Source of the DNA: Bacteroidetes bacterium OLB10
GTDB lineage: Bacteria > Bacteroidota > Bacteroidia > AKYH767-A > OLB10
DNA: 64,000 nucleotides
Assembly: GCA_001567275.1 (NCBI GenBank)
Contig: LNBX01000048.1
Location: 1 to 64,000, forward strand
Reading direction: 5' to 3'
Below the pieces are notes generated by a model, which searched no databases, was not told the origin of the DNA, and saw nothing but the letters and a program-made list of their open reading frames with translations. The stretch's first letter is position 1, and each line of letters starts with the position of its first letter. Of this stretch, positions 56,199-64,000 are shown in pieces. The position numbers and the translations under genes were made by a program.

Positions 56199-57980
56199 TT
56201 GATGATTTCCACAAAAGCAATTTATAAGATAATTCGAAAGATTCTTGTCTTTTTGTGGTTTATATTAGCTTCTACAAGTACGCAGAGCCAGAATATTGAT
56301 TCTATTGGTGTAAATGATTATGAATCAATAAGAGAATATTTAATGTTTTCCAGTGGTAAATTCAAGAATGCAGGGATTGAATCTCAGATATACCGTGAAC
56401 ATTTGGGCAATCAAATATTTTCGAATTTAAACAATAAGAACAATTTATGTTTAATTGATGATACCACAACATTTAGTTTATTAAGATATTCAACGCTAAC
56501 ACCCAAAACTGCTTACCTGGAGGTTAATCACCATCAGAGGTTATTAAAATCACTTTTAGCAACAATACATTTTGAAAGTAATAAGGGTGATGGTTATTAC
56601 CAGAATCAGGCTTTCAGATTTAATCATTTAGATGTTGCTCTATTTAGTACGCAATCTTCAAAATTGAGATATCTGATTAAAGGCCGTAGTTTAAAATATG
56701 TTCAAGAGGAAAGTGGCGGCATTAAAAATGATTCTGCCTTCATTCATGAAAAAAAGAATCCAAAGCTATATGAGTTTTCTCTTCTCAATTCAACATCAAC
56801 AACTAAAGAAAAGAGTGCAGAAGGATATGTTGATTACAATTTAATTAAACAATACAATGATTTCAATCTCTCCCCTACTCCATTTGAATTAAGACCTTTT
56901 GCTGATATCAATATCAAAAAATTAAGTTATCTATTTGAATCGGATTCTAAAGAAGAGTATTATTTAAATAATTTTCTTGATACTAATATTACAAGTGACT
57001 TAATGAGTGTGTTAACATCAACAGGAACTTTGGGGTTGAAAGTTATAAATTTTCCAATTTTTAGAGCAAAGTATATAATTCATTCACAACTGGATTATTC
57101 TCTTTCTAAAATCACACTTCAACAGCCAATTATTGACAGTAGTTTTTGGCTTCATCAAATTAAATACGATATCACTTTAAACGACTCGTCATTTACAAAG
57201 TCAATTCAACTAGTTATTGAGAATAACAGACTAGCTGAACTGCAGAAATTAAATCACACTAATGTTTATTTTACCGCAAACGGTACTTTTTTTAAGAAAT
57301 ATAAAATAGAGGCAGGTTTGATTTTTCAACAACAAGTACCATCTCTGTTGGATAATTATTGTTTAACGAATCATTTTGAATGGGCTAATGATTTTGGATT
57401 AACTAAAATTATTAAGCCATTTCTTAAAATAGGTCTTCTGAAACTTGGTTTAGATGTAGAGTATCAGCATTATTTTATTAATGATTTAATTTATTATAGT
57501 CCATTATTTCAACCAATACAAGCCTATAGTCAAACGCAATACGGTCAGGTTAATTTAGTATATAGTTTGAATCGGGAAAAAGTGCAAATGAAAAACCAAC
57601 TCTTATGGAATACTGCATCGAATAATGATATTTTAAGAGCGCCAACTTATGGATTGAAATCAAGTTTGACATATAACTTAAAAATAAAAGGAAATCGCTT
57701 AGTAATATCTCCAGGAATTAACTTGTTGTATTACACTCCATATAAAGGTTATTCATATGAGCCTTCATTAGGGCAATATTACTTAAGTGCAGAAAAGAAC
57801 TGCGGAGGTTATCCATTTGCAGATATTTTTGTTGCCATTAAAATAACCAAAGCAACTATCAAATTAGCCGTTGATCATGTTAATTCAAATTTGATGGAAC
57901 GCAACTATTTTCTAGTGACAAATTATCCAATGAGTGGACGACAGTTTAAATTCGAAATTAACTGGTTACTCCGGAATTAA
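56199..57980 (+). CDS. Putative porin (Porin_10-like outer-membrane protein)
   Basis: A 593-residue exported protein with signal peptide (cleavage near TSTQSQ) and strands of alternating polarity through most of its length. The C-terminus FLVTNYPMSGRQFKFEINWLL matches the end of the Bacteroidota putative-porin group (Porin_10), ending in an aromatic/hydrophobic strand. Likely a large outer-membrane beta-barrel channel; solute unknown. Its 3' end overlaps the convergent SCO gene by 23 bases. Its transcription may partly depend on readthrough from the rRNA operon, since the gap to the terminator is only about 30 bases. Confidence 0.78.
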   Translation: MMISTKAIYKIIRKILVFLWFILASTSTQSQNIDSIGVNDYESIREYLMFSSGKFKNAGIESQIYREHLGNQIFSNLNNKNNLCLIDDTTTFSLLRYSTLTPKTAYLEVNHHQRLLKSLLATIHFESNKGDGYYQNQAFRFNHLDVALFSTQSSKLRYLIKGRSLKYVQEESGGIKNDSAFIHEKKNPKLYEFSLLNSTSTTKEKSAEGYVDYNLIKQYNDFNLSPTPFELRPFADINIKKLSYLFESDSKEEYYLNNFLDTNITSDLMSVLTSTGTLGLKVINFPIFRAKYIIHSQLDYSLSKITLQQPIIDSSFWLHQIKYDITLNDSSFTKSIQLVIENNRLAELQKLNHTNVYFTANGTFFKKYKIEAGLIFQQQVPSLLDNYCLTNHFEWANDFGLTKIIKPFLKIGLLKLGLDVEYQHYFINDLIYYSPLFQPIQAYSQTQYGQVNLVYSLNREKVQMKNQLLWNTASNNDILRAPTYGLKSSLTYNLKIKGNRLVISPGINLLYYTPYKGYSYEPSLGQYYLSAEKNCGGYPFADIFVAIKITKATIKLAVDHVNSNLMERNYFLVTNYPMSGRQFKFEINWLLRN

Positions 57981-58737
57981 GTTTTTTATCAGGTCGTGCC
58001 CAAATACGAATTCCAATCAATATCACTATAGTAAGAATTGCAGGTAATGCAATAAATAAAAGACCGAAACCAGGTTTATTTTTCCCAGTCAAGGGGTCGT
58101 ATTTAAAACAAGAAAAAAGATTAGTATTAGAAGGTAATTGATAGGTAGGTGTATACTCATTATTAATACTTGAAATTAATAATGAAATATCCTTTTCACT
58201 TCTTATTCCAAATAACTTTTTACAAATGTATCCCTGACTATTTACACCAACAAGCAGAGCATCATGATCAAACTGCTTAATTGCAGGATTCCAGACAGGA
58301 TGAAATCCAACAGACTTATTTAGAGAAGTAATATTATTTGTTACTGCAAACAGCCATTTTTTATCATTGAGTAAATCGAATTGTCGGGCCATATAAGACA
58401 TATCAGATAGAGAATCTTCCGGATCGAAACTTAAAACCAAAACATTATAAGGCTTAGAATTATCTCGAGAAAGTGCACGGAGACTTTCTTTTAACTGTAA
58501 TAAGTAAGGAGAGCATAATCCGGAGCATCTTGTAAAGACAAATGCTATTATTAATGGTTCACGTTCAGCTAAGCCATGAATTGTAGTAGTTTTTCCGTCA
58601 GTTAATTTTAACTGCGCATTAAAAATCTGATTATAAATATTCTCTTCCTCACGTAAATCCTGTTGAGATTGACCCAACGTTAAATTCAGATTGCAGGAGA
58701 GAAATAATGTTAACGTGCAAAAAGCATACTTAAACAC
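57958..58737 (-). CDS. SCO1/SenC family copper chaperone
   Basis: A 259-residue SCO protein that delivers copper to the CuA site of heme-copper oxidases. N-terminal signal/anchor (1-22), thioredoxin-like domain with Cu ligands Cys71 and Cys75 in TRCSGLCSP and His158 in QFDHDALL. An extra C-terminal membrane helix (about 225-250, LLFIALPAILTIVILIGIRIW) anchors it, unlike most SCO proteins with an N-terminal anchor only. The start overlaps the end of oxidase subunit I by 28 bases. Position after subunits II and I fits CuA assembly. Confidence 0.9.
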   Translation of the reverse strand: MFKYAFCTLTLFLSCNLNLTLGQSQQDLREEENIYNQIFNAQLKLTDGKTTTIHGLAEREPLIIAFVFTRCSGLCSPYLLQLKESLRALSRDNSKPYNVLVLSFDPEDSLSDMSYMARQFDLLNDKKWLFAVTNNITSLNKSVGFHPVWNPAIKQFDHDALLVGVNSQGYICKKLFGIRSEKDISLLISSINNEYTPTYQLPSNTNLFSCFKYDPLTGKNKPGFGLLFIALPAILTIVILIGIRIWARPDKKLNSGVTS

Positions 58738-60149
58738 CTTCTTGAAATATTAACAAAAAACATCAGAATTGCTATCAAATAAATTATTGCAGATACTGCT
58801 CCTAACAAAGCATATGATTTACCAGCAGCCAGTTCGGCAGGATAATTACTATAACGTCTTGGTATAGAATCGGCACCCGCAATATAAAATGCTGCTAAGA
58901 AACCTATGCCACCTAATATCAAAAGTGCAATTTTAAGAGATTGCAATTTATTGGTGACTTCTGATTTTGAATACTGAACAGAAAACCAATAAAAGAAACC
59001 AAGACTGAATAATACGTTGCCCATTGCATTATAAGTATGAAAATGAGCAGGCACCCAAAGTGTGTTGTGCAATACGAAGTTATTAGAAATAGTTGCATCA
59101 ATGAGTGCTCCTACTCCACCTATAATCCAACCACAAGTTCCTATGATAAAAAGAAGATTTGCCATAGACCATTTTATTTTGGTTCGATATACTGCAACTA
59201 TGATACTGAATACTGTAACAGCAGCCGAAGGTAAACTTGCAAGATAAGAAGCAAACTGTCCTATTAACTGTAATGATTGAGGTTGCGCAAAATCCATGTA
59301 CATATGGTGTAAAAAAGCAGCTAATACGAAGAATAAGGTCAAGTTCCATGCTATGGCAACATACCAAGTAGTTTTCCATTTTGGACGGCCACTTATTTCA
59401 GCAAATAATTCATAGATGACAGCAAGTCCAAGGTATAACATTTCATTAGCGATGGTATGTCCGAAGTAATAAGTCAGATTTTTCATCAGCAACGGGTCGT
59501 TTGAAAAAGTACCATTTGAAAAGAACTCCCAAAACAATAAGACCAATACAACAACTGCTGCAATCAGGCTGGTTAAAACACCCAACAAACTAATCATTGA
59601 AATTAACACAAATGGCGGTGTCTCAATTTCAGGATTCTTATTACCAATATGCTGCCAAGCAAAGACCTGGGAAATGGAATACTTTCGGAGCAATGCTGCC
59701 ATTAAGCTAACTGTCCAAACCAGCCAACCAACTCCGAGAATGGATAATGAAACAAGAAATAATACAATTGACCAACTATCCCATAATGGTCTGAGAGGAA
59801 GCGGATAAAGGAATGTCCATCCGGCATGAAATTTTCCAACAAAAGCTGAGACCCATAACAATATTACACCAATAACCGTAAATATAAATGCAAAAAGGTT
59901 GGCTGAATAACTTGTTTTTACATAACGCTCCATTATAAAGTTTACTGCAGCCATACCAGCTACAAACCAAATACCAATCATTGTTAAGCCATGCACTGTC
60001 ATATTCTCATAAAAACCTGCAGGACTAAGTTTCATTATAGCAGCCTGATTAAGACGCATAATAATACCCAGAGTGATGGCAGCTACAAATAATACAAGCA
60101 CTGCAACAATCCAAATTGCTGTAATTTTTCTTAATCTTATATTTTCCAT
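58710..60149 (-). CDS. Heme-copper oxidoreductase subunit I, B-type-like, active-site Tyr replaced by Asn
   Basis: A 479-residue membrane protein of about 12-13 helices. Low-spin heme ligands His53 (TVHGLTM) and His371, high-spin heme ligand His369 (VPAHFHT), CuB ligands His231, His281 and His282 (LHHMY). Overall pattern (HNTLWVPAHFH, FLHHMY) is closest to B-family (ba3) oxidases. In these enzymes helix VI reads GHPxVY with a Tyr crosslinked to the CuB His; here it reads GHTIANE, so Asn235 sits at the Tyr position with Glu236 next to it. Loss of this Tyr is a mark of NO reductases derived from oxygen reductases. Encoded 8 bases after a CuA subunit II, before SCO. O2 or NO as the acceptor is not decided by sequence. 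Confidence 0.85.
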   Translation of the reverse strand: MENIRLRKITAIWIVAVLVLFVAAITLGIIMRLNQAAIMKLSPAGFYENMTVHGLTMIGIWFVAGMAAVNFIMERYVKTSYSANLFAFIFTVIGVILLWVSAFVGKFHAGWTFLYPLPLRPLWDSWSIVLFLVSLSILGVGWLVWTVSLMAALLRKYSISQVFAWQHIGNKNPEIETPPFVLISMISLLGVLTSLIAAVVVLVLLFWEFFSNGTFSNDPLLMKNLTYYFGHTIANEMLYLGLAVIYELFAEISGRPKWKTTWYVAIAWNLTLFFVLAAFLHHMYMDFAQPQSLQLIGQFASYLASLPSAAVTVFSIIVAVYRTKIKWSMANLLFIIGTCGWIIGGVGALIDATISNNFVLHNTLWVPAHFHTYNAMGNVLFSLGFFYWFSVQYSKSEVTNKLQSLKIALLILGGIGFLAAFYIAGADSIPRRYSNYPAELAAGKSYALLGAVSAIIYLIAILMFFVNISRRCLSMLFAR

Positions 60150-60157
60150 TTTATATC

Positions 60158-60709
60158 TTATTTAACAGTGAATGATGAACGCATAACCTGATGACCTGAG
60201 CCACAATACTCGAGGCAAAAAATATTATAATCACCCGGAGTAGTAAACTTATAACGCAATCTGTTTACATAGCCCGGCATTGCCTGGGTTTGTGCTATAA
60301 GTACGTTTTTGTCATTATAAATTCCAAAGTTGTGATTCACATCGAGACTTGTAACTCTAAATTCGACAACCTGATTTACGGGAACTTCGATTGACGGATC
60401 ACTACTTGGATTTTTTGGATCAATTGCATTATAGGACATCATAAAATAAAACTGCCCGGCAGCAACGTGTATTACTTTGGCAGGAGTATCATTCGCAAAA
60501 GCAAAATATGGGGATTTCGGAATAGTAATAGAAGCAAACATTGCTAATACTACCACCAATATCAGCAAAAACCACCCTCTTTTATGTAAAGCATTTTTCA
60601 TTCCTTTACTTTCCTCATTTGCATTTACAGATGACAAATAAACATAGACGAATACTCCAACAATAACTAATGTGAGTATTGCGAAAAATATTAAGATTGA
60701 ATGTTGCAT
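60158..60709 (-). CDS. Oxidase subunit II with CuA site
   Basis: A 183-residue protein with two hydrophobic segments (about 5-27 and 45-62) and a C-terminal cupredoxin domain. The CuA ligands are all present: His126 (DVNHNFG), Cys165, Glu167, Cys169, His173 and Met176 in CLEYCGSGHQVM. It accepts electrons from a soluble or membrane cytochrome c or other donor and passes them to subunit I. First gene of the subunit II-subunit I-SCO operon. Confidence 0.9.
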   Translation of the reverse strand: MQHSILIFFAILTLVIVGVFVYVYLSSVNANEESKGMKNALHKRGWFLLILVVVLAMFASITIPKSPYFAFANDTPAKVIHVAAGQFYFMMSYNAIDPKNPSSDPSIEVPVNQVVEFRVTSLDVNHNFGIYNDKNVLIAQTQAMPGYVNRLRYKFTTPGDYNIFCLEYCGSGHQVMRSSFTVK

Positions 60710-60794: not shown

Positions 60795-60827
60795 CAAAAG
60801 TATATCAAATTTTTTAATTTCGGACAA
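60795..60827 (-). promoter_or_regulatory. Candidate promoter of the CuA oxidase operon
   Basis: On the minus strand TTG (60825-60827), 22-base spacer, TACTTTTG (60795-60802). The -7 box is a perfect TAnnTTTG; the spacer is one to three bases longer than usual. Leader of about 80 bases to the subunit II ATG. Confidence 0.58.
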
Positions 60828-60835
60828 TTTTGTCC
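60822..60835. promoter_or_regulatory. Palindromic operator candidate GGACAA-TT-TTGTCC
   Basis: Six-base inverted repeats with a two-base centre, overlapping the -33 element of the promoter. The position suits a repressor. The regulator is not known; an Rrf2-type factor is a guess from the arm style. Confidence 0.55.
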
Positions 60836-61072: not shown

Positions 61073-62419
61073 TCAGAACATTGAATGAGCAAAATTTTGA
61101 ATAGTATTTGCTGCACCTTTCAATAACTTAATTACAAAAATTGAAATGGTTATAAGTAAACCAATTCCGGCAAAAAGAAAAGCAATGAAATAAGGTTTTA
61201 AAGATTGCATCATGACTGAATAGCTACTTTGATTTTCACTTAATTGCCATAATCCTTTTTTGAAACCGGCAATATTCAGTGATAGAAAAAGCACAATCAA
61301 GCAAATCTGCAGTGTCCAAAAATTAAGATTAATACTGAATGTTGGTTTCATATCGCGATACAATCCGGGTTTGAGAAACTCGAAGCATGCAGCAAGGAGA
61401 ATCATGCTATTAATTCCAATAGTTGTACCCATGGCATGAGCTACCGTAACATGTGTGCCATGCGTATAAATATTTATTGCAGGAATTGACAGCAGGGATG
61501 CAAGCCCAATGTTTATAAAAACCCAAAAATCAGATGCCATTATTAACCTGTAAGGGAAATAATGATAATGTTTTTGAATATCACTTACACTTTTCTTCCA
61601 GTTATAAATAATCCTGACGAAAAAAATCCACTCCGTCATGCTAACCGCATAACCAATGTATCGTATATACTTATCTGTAGGAAGAGTGTAAATATGATGT
61701 CCCCAATTGAACATGAGATTAAACAAACCCAGAAAATACATTGCAAAAGCAAGATTGTTTTTCCCGACAGTTTTAGTTCCGGAAATGCGATCCATCAGAA
61801 AGAATGCTGTTCCATACACTAATTGATTCCAGGCGCCAACGAGAGAGCCATTCACCTTCCACTGAATTGTCATATCAGTAACAAAGTGCTCTCTGAAAAC
61901 AGGAAATAACCAAAGATAATTTTCGGTAAAGGAGAAAAAGAAAAATATCAGACCTGTGAACCACATCCACATATATACAGGCCAGTTGCGTACTTTATAA
62001 ATGTGTTTGTAAAAATTGATAAAAAACAAAATCCAGGCAATAGCAATAGGAAGTGCCCAAACCGGATCGAACTCCCAATACTCTCTTCCACCGAAATGCT
62101 TTGTAAAATAAGAAATGAAAATTCCGCTTATGGCAATCATCCAAAGAATCCATTGCGTTAATGCTATTGCATTATTCACCTTTTGTCCTGTAACTATCAT
62201 TACACCGTTATACACACTTCCGGTTGCGCCAAGAAATATCCAGAACAATGCAGAGGATACATGCAATGGTCTCAATGAAATAAATCCTAAACTGTTTTTT
62301 AAAAATTCAGGAGAGATATACACTACTGCTGCAAGGACTCCAAAAAGTAATCCTGCCAGCAACATGATAAGTGCTGAAATCAAAAAGAGATTACCTATAT
62401 TCAGTTTATTTATACTCAT
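61073..62419 (-). CDS. NorB-like heme-copper subunit lacking key metal ligands
   Basis: A 448-residue, about 12-helix protein of NorB length. NorB-like features: RPLHVSSALFW (low-spin heme His53), GGREYWEFDP, NWGHHIYTLPT (His241, His242), YTHGTHVTVAH (His328). Missing compared with P. aeruginosa NorB: helix VI should bear the FeB ligands His and Glu (HLWVEGVWE), but reads NGSLVGAWN at 190-198; and the AHGH motif reads AHAM, so the low-spin heme His is Met330. Spacing between the helix VI GxW and the HH pair equals that in NorB, so the alignment is firm. It is encoded with a NorC-like cytochrome (14-base overlap). Function uncertain: divergent NO reductase, electron-transfer or sensory subunit. 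Confidence 0.8.
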   Translation of the reverse strand: MSINKLNIGNLFLISALIMLLAGLLFGVLAAVVYISPEFLKNSLGFISLRPLHVSSALFWIFLGATGSVYNGVMIVTGQKVNNAIALTQWILWMIAISGIFISYFTKHFGGREYWEFDPVWALPIAIAWILFFINFYKHIYKVRNWPVYMWMWFTGLIFFFFSFTENYLWLFPVFREHFVTDMTIQWKVNGSLVGAWNQLVYGTAFFLMDRISGTKTVGKNNLAFAMYFLGLFNLMFNWGHHIYTLPTDKYIRYIGYAVSMTEWIFFVRIIYNWKKSVSDIQKHYHYFPYRLIMASDFWVFINIGLASLLSIPAINIYTHGTHVTVAHAMGTTIGINSMILLAACFEFLKPGLYRDMKPTFSINLNFWTLQICLIVLFLSLNIAGFKKGLWQLSENQSSYSVMMQSLKPYFIAFLFAGIGLLITISIFVIKLLKGAANTIQNFAHSMF

Positions 62420-62828
62420 CCTGTTCTATCATGCCAATGTTATTTGTTTTAAAAGCTCTTGGATCTGCTCTTCCGCTCAAATCAGTTGCTCTTAGAAATT
62501 CTGCCAGCTTATGTATTTCATCATCCGTTAAATCAAATGCAGGCATTTGTTTAATTCCGGATTTGACCATTGCCTTAAGAAAGGGTTCTCCCCTTCCGGG
62601 AGCTGACATAAAATTTGTGAGATCAGGTCCGAGATATCCTCCCAAACCATAGAACTGATGACAACTCTGACAATTATATTTTTGCCATACTAATCTTCCT
62701 TCAGAAACAAGTTCTCTATTTAATCTTTTATCATACGCAGTGCTGAAAGGATGCAGATATATACTAAATGAATAAGCAAGAAACAGAGTGCTTAACATCA
62801 GAAATATATGCCTGGCTTTAAACCTCAT
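62406..62828 (-). CDS. NorC-like membrane-anchored cytochrome c
   Basis: A 140-residue protein with one N-terminal membrane helix (about 7-25) and a single c-type heme site C53-Q-S-C-H57; Met95 in KQMPAF is the likely axial ligand. VWQKYNCQSCHQFYGLGGYLGPDLTN is the typical NorC sequence. It should pass electrons to the NorB-like subunit whose gene overlaps it by 14 bases. It starts 16 bases after the stop of the upstream lyase gene. Confidence 0.9.
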   Translation of the reverse strand: MRFKARHIFLMLSTLFLAYSFSIYLHPFSTAYDKRLNRELVSEGRLVWQKYNCQSCHQFYGLGGYLGPDLTNFMSAPGRGEPFLKAMVKSGIKQMPAFDLTDDEIHKLAEFLRATDLSGRADPRAFKTNNIGMIEQDEYK

Positions 62829-62844
62829 ATTACCTTCGAGATAA

Positions 62845-64000
62845 TTATTTCAGTCTTTCAAACCTTGCCTGGAAGAAACGCAGATACTTTGGTTCATATA
62901 CCATTTTAAGTCCTTTGATATATTTTCTTCTGTCATATACAGCAGCTGCTGATTCAGCAATAACATCCATGTGTGCCTGAGTATAAACCCTTCTTGGTAA
63001 AGTGAATCTGACAAGTTCGAGTTTGGGATAATAATTCTCGCCATTAGGTTTGCGTCCTGCTGAAACTATACCGCGCTCCATTGTGCGCACTCCCGAATCA
63101 ATATAAATTTCGGCTGCGAGCGTTTGAGCAGGAAACTGGTCCTGTGATAGATGAGGCAGAAAAGATTTGGCATCAACAAATATTCCATGACCACCGATAG
63201 GCTTTACAATTGGTATATTATACTCCATCATCTTATGACCAAGATATTCAACCTGCCCTACCCTTGCCTGCTGATGATTATCATCAAGACTTTCTACAAT
63301 ACCAACTGCAATTGCTTCCATATCACGGCCGGCTAAACCTCCGTAGGTATGCAAGCCTTCGTATACAACCACCATATTTCTTGCTTCTTCAAACACATCC
63401 CAATCGTTGATGGCAAGAAAACCTCCGATGTTTACCAATGCATCTTTTTTTGCACTCATTGTAGCACCATCTGTATAAGAGCAAATCTCTTTTACAATTT
63501 CGCGAATACTTTTCTTATTGTAGCCCTTTTCACGCTGCTGTATGAAATATGCATTCTCGCCAACACGTGTCATGTCATGAATAATGCGGATACCATGTTT
63601 TTTAGTATAAGCCCTCAGTTCTTTAAGGTTTGCCATACTGATTGGCTGACCTCCTGCCATATTTACATTAGTAGCTATGCATACATATGGAATTTTTTTA
63701 GCTCCATGTTTCTTTACCAGTTTGTCGAGTTTACTGATATCAACGTTGCCTTTAAATTGATGTTCGTTGAAAGGGTCATGAGCTTCATCAATGATAATAT
63801 CTGCAAATGTTCCACCTGCCAATTCCTGATGCAAACGTGTTGTTGTAAAATACATGTTACCAGGAACGATATCACCTTTCTTTATCAGAATTTGTGAGAG
63901 AATATTTTCGGCAGCGCGACCCTGATGAGTGGGAACTACATATTTGTATCCATAATACTTTTGAATAGCTTCTTCGAGAAGATAATAGCTTTTGCTTCCA
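62845..64000 (-). CDS. PLP-dependent beta-eliminating lyase, tyrosine phenol-lyase/tryptophanase type (5' end beyond window)
   Basis: Tyrosine phenol-lyase splits tyrosine into phenol, pyruvate and ammonia; tryptophanase does the like with tryptophan. The frame is open to the window edge: codons above the Met at 63855 read GSKSYYLLEEAIQKYYGY ... PTHQGRAAEN, so the gene is cut at 64000 and about 75-80 N-terminal residues are missing. PLP-Lys lies in TMSAKKDALVNIGG. GGLAGRDMEA and GVRTMERGIVSAGR favour tyrosine phenol-lyase, as the Arg after ME is the residue that contacts the phenol ring in that enzyme, while tryptophanase has a hydrophobic residue. The norC-like gene follows 16 bases downstream. 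Confidence 0.88.
   Translation of the reverse strand, partial: GSKSYYLLEEAIQKYYGYKYVVPTHQGRAAENILSQILIKKGDIVPGNMYFTTTRLHQELAGGTFADIIIDEAHDPFNEHQFKGNVDISKLDKLVKKHGAKKIPYVCIATNVNMAGGQPISMANLKELRAYTKKHGIRIIHDMTRVGENAYFIQQREKGYNKKSIREIVKEICSYTDGATMSAKKDALVNIGGFLAINDWDVFEEARNMVVVYEGLHTYGGLAGRDMEAIAVGIVESLDDNHQQARVGQVEYLGHKMMEYNIPIVKPIGGHGIFVDAKSFLPHLSQDQFPAQTLAAEIYIDSGVRTMERGIVSAGRKPNGENYYPKLELVRFTLPRRVYTQAHMDVIAESAAAVYDRRKYIKGLKMVYEPKYLRFFQARFERLK

Follow-up and report, generated by a model that had tools for sequence, protein, structure and literature searches.

The gene cluster described here, from Bacteroidetes bacterium OLB10, likely encodes a putative CuA-type NO reductase, a member of the heme-copper superfamily with a conserved Asn at the place of the catalytic Tyr. 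Such an enzyme had been predicted in a sequence-only reading of the same DNA, and the prediction is well supported by the genomic context, by the fixed Asn, and by a tree in which the proteins separate from Tyr-bearing oxidases. The kind of enzyme, a CuA NO reductase, is probably not new, and the Asn family is, going by description, probably the proposed nNOR family. Three results are added to the earlier reading: the Asn is fixed across a wide family, the family is linked to NosZ, and it has an odd NorB partner.

Subunit I and its neighbours in the cluster

The window, i.e., the whole stretch of 64,000 nucleotides that was analysed, carries the features listed in Table 1. Read 5' to 3', the genes come in the order NorC-like, NorB-like, a gap of about 360 bases, subunit II, subunit I (SI), and SCO.

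Table 1. Features of the cluster, in positions of the window.
Feature	Positions	Strand	Remarks
SCO1/SenC-type copper chaperone	57958..58737	minus	CxxxC; overlaps the SI 3' end by 28 bases
Heme-copper subunit I (SI)	58710..60149	minus	479 aa, ATG start, six His kept, Asn235 for active-site Tyr
SI codons 230-236, GHTIANE	59442..59462	minus	computed from ORF start; Asn235 codon 59445-59447
CuA subunit II	60158..60709	minus	183 aa; Pfam COX2, CoxB; CuA ligands
Perfect palindrome GGACAAAATTGTCC	60822..60835	none	upstream region of subunit II (126 bases upstream); possible regulator site, weak
NorB-like protein	61073..62419	minus	448 aa; without helix VI FeB His and catalytic Glu; Met330 for low-spin heme His
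NorC-like membrane-anchored cytochrome c	62406..62828	minus	140 aa, CxxCH

SI matches Pfam COX1 with E = 2.8e-57, and a plus-strand reading of 58710-60149 is ruled out by stops throughout. The sequence-only reading had placed the metal-binding histidines at 53, 231, 281, 282, 369, and 371, and all six are found at these residues. It had also read GHTIANE in helix VI, with Asn for Tyr, and this was borne out on the minus strand. The helix reads F-G-H231-T-I-A-N235-E, and when the family profile is aligned with solved and mitochondrial COX1 the helix is ungapped (GHtlvN against GHpevY), which puts Asn235, at H+4, on the position of the cross-linked Tyr. SI thus lacks the cross-linked Tyr at helix VI H+4 that marks a classical A or B oxygen reductase.

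A Tyr elsewhere that reaches CuB had been named in advance as refuting the prediction. Judged from the sequences, the alignment appears to hold no such residue, and no invariant Tyr placed to stand in for the lost one was found in the family. Tyr239 is at H+8, two helical turns away, and Tyr246 is at H+15, a K-path position. In C-family oxidases the active Tyr sits in helix VII, just before the HH pair; no Tyr is found in SI among the ten residues preceding this pair. The K-path region looks B-like, with Thr for the A-type Lys, Tyr at H+15, and no Glu of the GHPEVY kind. The AlphaFold model of SI is a confident helical bundle (pLDDT 85, pTM 0.89); among solved structures it comes closest to mitochondrial COX1, bo3, and ba3 (TM about 0.71-0.80). 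Thermus thermophilus ba3 (1ehk) shares with SI the fold, the six His, a CuA subunit II, the Tyr at H+15, and the Thr for the A-type Lys, but it has the cross-linked Tyr where SI has Asn, and the two proteins belong to separate clades.

The full CuA subunit II and the SCO chaperone named in the sequence-only reading are both present, the former with a complete CuA set (H126, C165, E167, C169, H173, M176) and the latter with its CxxxC motif. Among the best 80 of 333 relatives, subunit II is found at 66 and SCO at 64 of the 73 loci with a family ORF, nearly always as the direct flanks of SI. The palindrome GGACAAAATTGTCC was matched with at most one mismatch in 6/66 upstream regions, compared with 0.4 expected from shuffles, and has few other sites in the genomes searched. 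It was rejected as a regulon marker, since the own genome holds only one other site, without a clear target.

Upstream of the NorC-like gene a tyrosine phenol-lyase/tryptophanase-like gene is found at 62845-63999, running past the end of the window, and a second paralogue adjoins it on the contig. Genes of this kind also lie near SI at four other loci (L053, L055, L062, and L070).

Distribution and ancestry of the Asn-type proteins

Named genomes were scanned for relatives of SI; 333 were obtained, and the best 80 of them were kept. Asn is found at H+4 in all 79 readable relatives among these 80, which show 43-92% identity and come from several phyla. The 79 consist of 73 family ORFs and six further loci read in six frames, and since each of them has the Asn, Asn235 is not a sequencing accident. 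The carriers among the best 80 of 333 are mostly Bacteroidota and Ignavibacteriota MAGs, together with Kapabacteria, Kryptonia, Acidobacteriota, a Methylomirabilis, and several proteobacterial MAGs; Gelidibacter japonicus is one cultured species among them. Across an alignment of 40 sequences there is no variation at the six His, at Asn235, or at Tyr239 and Tyr246. The SI gene is under purifying selection; compared with the nearest orthologue dN is 0.086 and dS, which is near saturation, is 1.8.

A tree was made from the Asn proteins, Tyr-bearing B oxidases of the same phylum, Thermus ba3, A-type and cbb3 oxidases, and NorB-like proteins. The Asn proteins group together in a single clade (100% support), apart from the Tyr-bearing A and B oxidases. 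SI also falls away from the NorB-like and cbb3 rows, and it is not the NorB-type subunit I without CuA that defines cNOR and qNOR. The label 'B-type' given in the sequence-only reading goes beyond what the tree shows: the K-path pattern does look B-like, but the best tree places the Asn clade outside A and B together, and the test rejects neither its grouping with B (p-AU 0.09) nor that with A (p-AU 0.14). The Gln-type B relatives, one of which is encoded in the own genome, form a clade separate from that of the Asn proteins. This gene (L003, G000:C34:9153-10817) lies outside the window and encodes a subunit I of the B type that carries Gln (GHSSQQ) where the Tyr would be. Its helix X has Lys for the second His (GHFKGT), a change seen otherwise only in L107 among those read; the other relatives have GHFH.

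SI is a Tyr-less subunit I with all six metal-binding His, as would be expected of nNOR, a name whose n we take to stand for Asn at the Tyr position. The nNOR family belongs to the NO reductases that Murali et al. 2024 (cited in PMC11388526) proposed as relatives of B-family oxidases. The literature using the name gives no residues for the family; likened by description, both are heme-copper subunits I proposed to reduce NO, with no known difference. The bNOR/CuANOR of Bacillus azotoformans, also compared by description, is CuA-bearing and oxidase-derived and has a K-path analogue, as proposed for SI (PMC5826923, PMC11388526).

Nitrogen oxide setting and proposed reaction

The own genome encodes five COX1-family proteins: an A-type, a fused cbb3, the Gln-type B relative, the Asn protein, and the NorB-like protein. 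None of the five is a canonical cNOR or qNOR. NosZ is present (930 bits, cut-off 625), while the genome gave no qNOR domain, no NirK match, and no match to cytochrome d1 (NirS). Among the Asn-type genomes, a set rich in reactor MAGs, which bears on the association, NosZ is above the cut-off in 37/42 and not above it in 5/42, compared with 122/389 (31%) of the other genomes of the phylum draw (Fisher p 7e-13, kinship ignored). Within that same draw five of the six Asn-type genomes have NosZ (p 0.014, kinship again ignored). A qNOR domain was above the cut-off in 10/42 of the Asn-type genomes, one of them marginal (nine clear); canonical cNOR was excluded by inspection in the own genome only. 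NirK is found in 11/42. Asn-type genomes are often without nir, a point against the NO reductase reading, and the NO must therefore have another origin.

Near SI in the relatives, Rrf2 regulators are found at 13 loci, and Ric/ScdA hemerythrin, DUF2249 proteins, and a formate/nitrite channel also recur, with NarG at one locus. The company of the SI gene is a nitrogen oxide setting and not an oxygen setting.

In the proposed reaction a cytochrome c, possibly the NorC-like protein, would reduce CuA of subunit II, and the electrons would pass through the low-spin heme (His53/His371) to the high-spin heme (His369), which would face CuB (His231, 281, and 282). Two NO would be coupled at this heme/CuB site (2 NO + 2 e- + 2 H+ -> N2O + H2O), and the N2O could then be removed by NosZ encoded elsewhere in the genome. 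Without the Tyr there would be no radical donor for O-O splitting, and NO reduction would need just two electrons; a Tyr radical would be dispensable because no O-O bond is split when NO is reduced. Protons would probably be taken up through a K-path analogue, as has been suggested for CuANOR (PMC5826923).

The same neighbours could be read differently, in that the Ric/ScdA, hemerythrin, and Rrf2 genes close to SI, as well as the lack of NirK and NirS in the own genome, would suit an NO reductase serving detoxification only, without respiration or energy conservation. We consider this unlikely; a CuA membrane complex and NosZ in most of the genomes fit respiration, and a pure detoxifier needs neither. 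Somewhat less probable still is that SI reduces O2 by a Tyr-less route, for instance scavenging oxygen slowly and with high affinity. This would agree with the retention of CuA and of all six His, and with oxidases being the closest solved structures, but every family member has lost the Tyr, a residue present throughout the classical O2-reducing families (PMC8780969). The neighbouring genes are related to nitrogen oxides, and for O2 the own genome already has A-type and cbb3 oxidases available, both Tyr-bearing.

The NorC/NorB-like pair and implications

The NorC/NorB-like pair (61073-62828) lies directly upstream of the subunit II-SI-SCO genes. The pair is homologous to cNOR (NorBC), while SI itself is not NorB-like; a 19-member profile of the NorB-like protein matches the cNOR NorB of 4xyd with E 6e-27. 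The NorB-like protein differs from cNOR NorB in that neither the FeB His of helix VI nor the catalytic Glu is present and one heme His is replaced by Met. At the place of the helix VI His, members of the family carry Asn, Tyr, Ala, or Ser; with the gap of the profile accepted, this place falls on an invariant Gly. Glu211 has gone, and Glu215 has given way to an invariant Asn. The HH pair is retained, as is the heme b3 His, and Met invariably stands as the second ligand of the low-spin heme. These altered ligands are shared by 23 distinct full-length relatives, nearly all of which were found to have a NorC-like gene next to them. A predicted structure of the NorB-like protein, based on three sequences only (pLDDT 55), was left out of the analysis. 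No description of this family was found in the literature.

The NorB-like family is enriched in Asn-type genomes, being found in 22/51 (one genome counted twice, as G019 and G470) compared with 7/389 of the others, and NosZ is present in each of the eight carriers of the phylum draw. In two Cyclobacteriaceae-type records the NorB-like gene is found 5-6 kb from SI. In the sister MAG WAS_Bin_1 (G041, L016:6500-7700) a deletion has taken subunit II together with roughly half of SI; what is left of SI is decayed, with two stops. NorC, NorB, and SCO remain, the first two intact. The SI and NorC/NorB parts can thus be uncoupled.

Other nitrogen oxide chemistry, such as NO dismutation together with the NorB-like protein, is the least probable alternative: the changed ligands loosely recall Nod, but 29/51 of the Asn-type genomes have no NorB-like match, and the Nod signature, in which the second His of the helix VII HH (qNOR His560) is replaced by Asn (PMC10286720, PMC3413370), is missing. 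The NorB-like protein as a Nod is ruled out on its residues, as the helix VII HH is kept in all members read.

As an extension of the CuA-type NO reductase, we tentatively suggest that the Asn-type enzyme and the NorC/NorB-like pair might form one NO-to-N2O module feeding NosZ. The NorB family, which lacks the third FeB His and would have a low-spin heme with His/Met ligands, could then be a partner, an electron conduit, or a second NO-handling site.

The Asn family offers a natural test of the role of the active-site Tyr, being a large family with oxidase ligands, CuA, and a fixed Asn. In a survey that counted only cnorB and qnorB, a nor gene was found in just 17% of the nosZ-only Bacteroidetes (PMC4250227). 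Since most of the 42 Asn-type genomes have NosZ and lack a qNOR domain, some of the organisms counted as reducing N2O but not NO may carry out the two steps. If this is true, some N2O-consuming bacteria gain an NO-removing step that they were believed to miss, and with both steps in one organism the counting of N2O sources and sinks would change.
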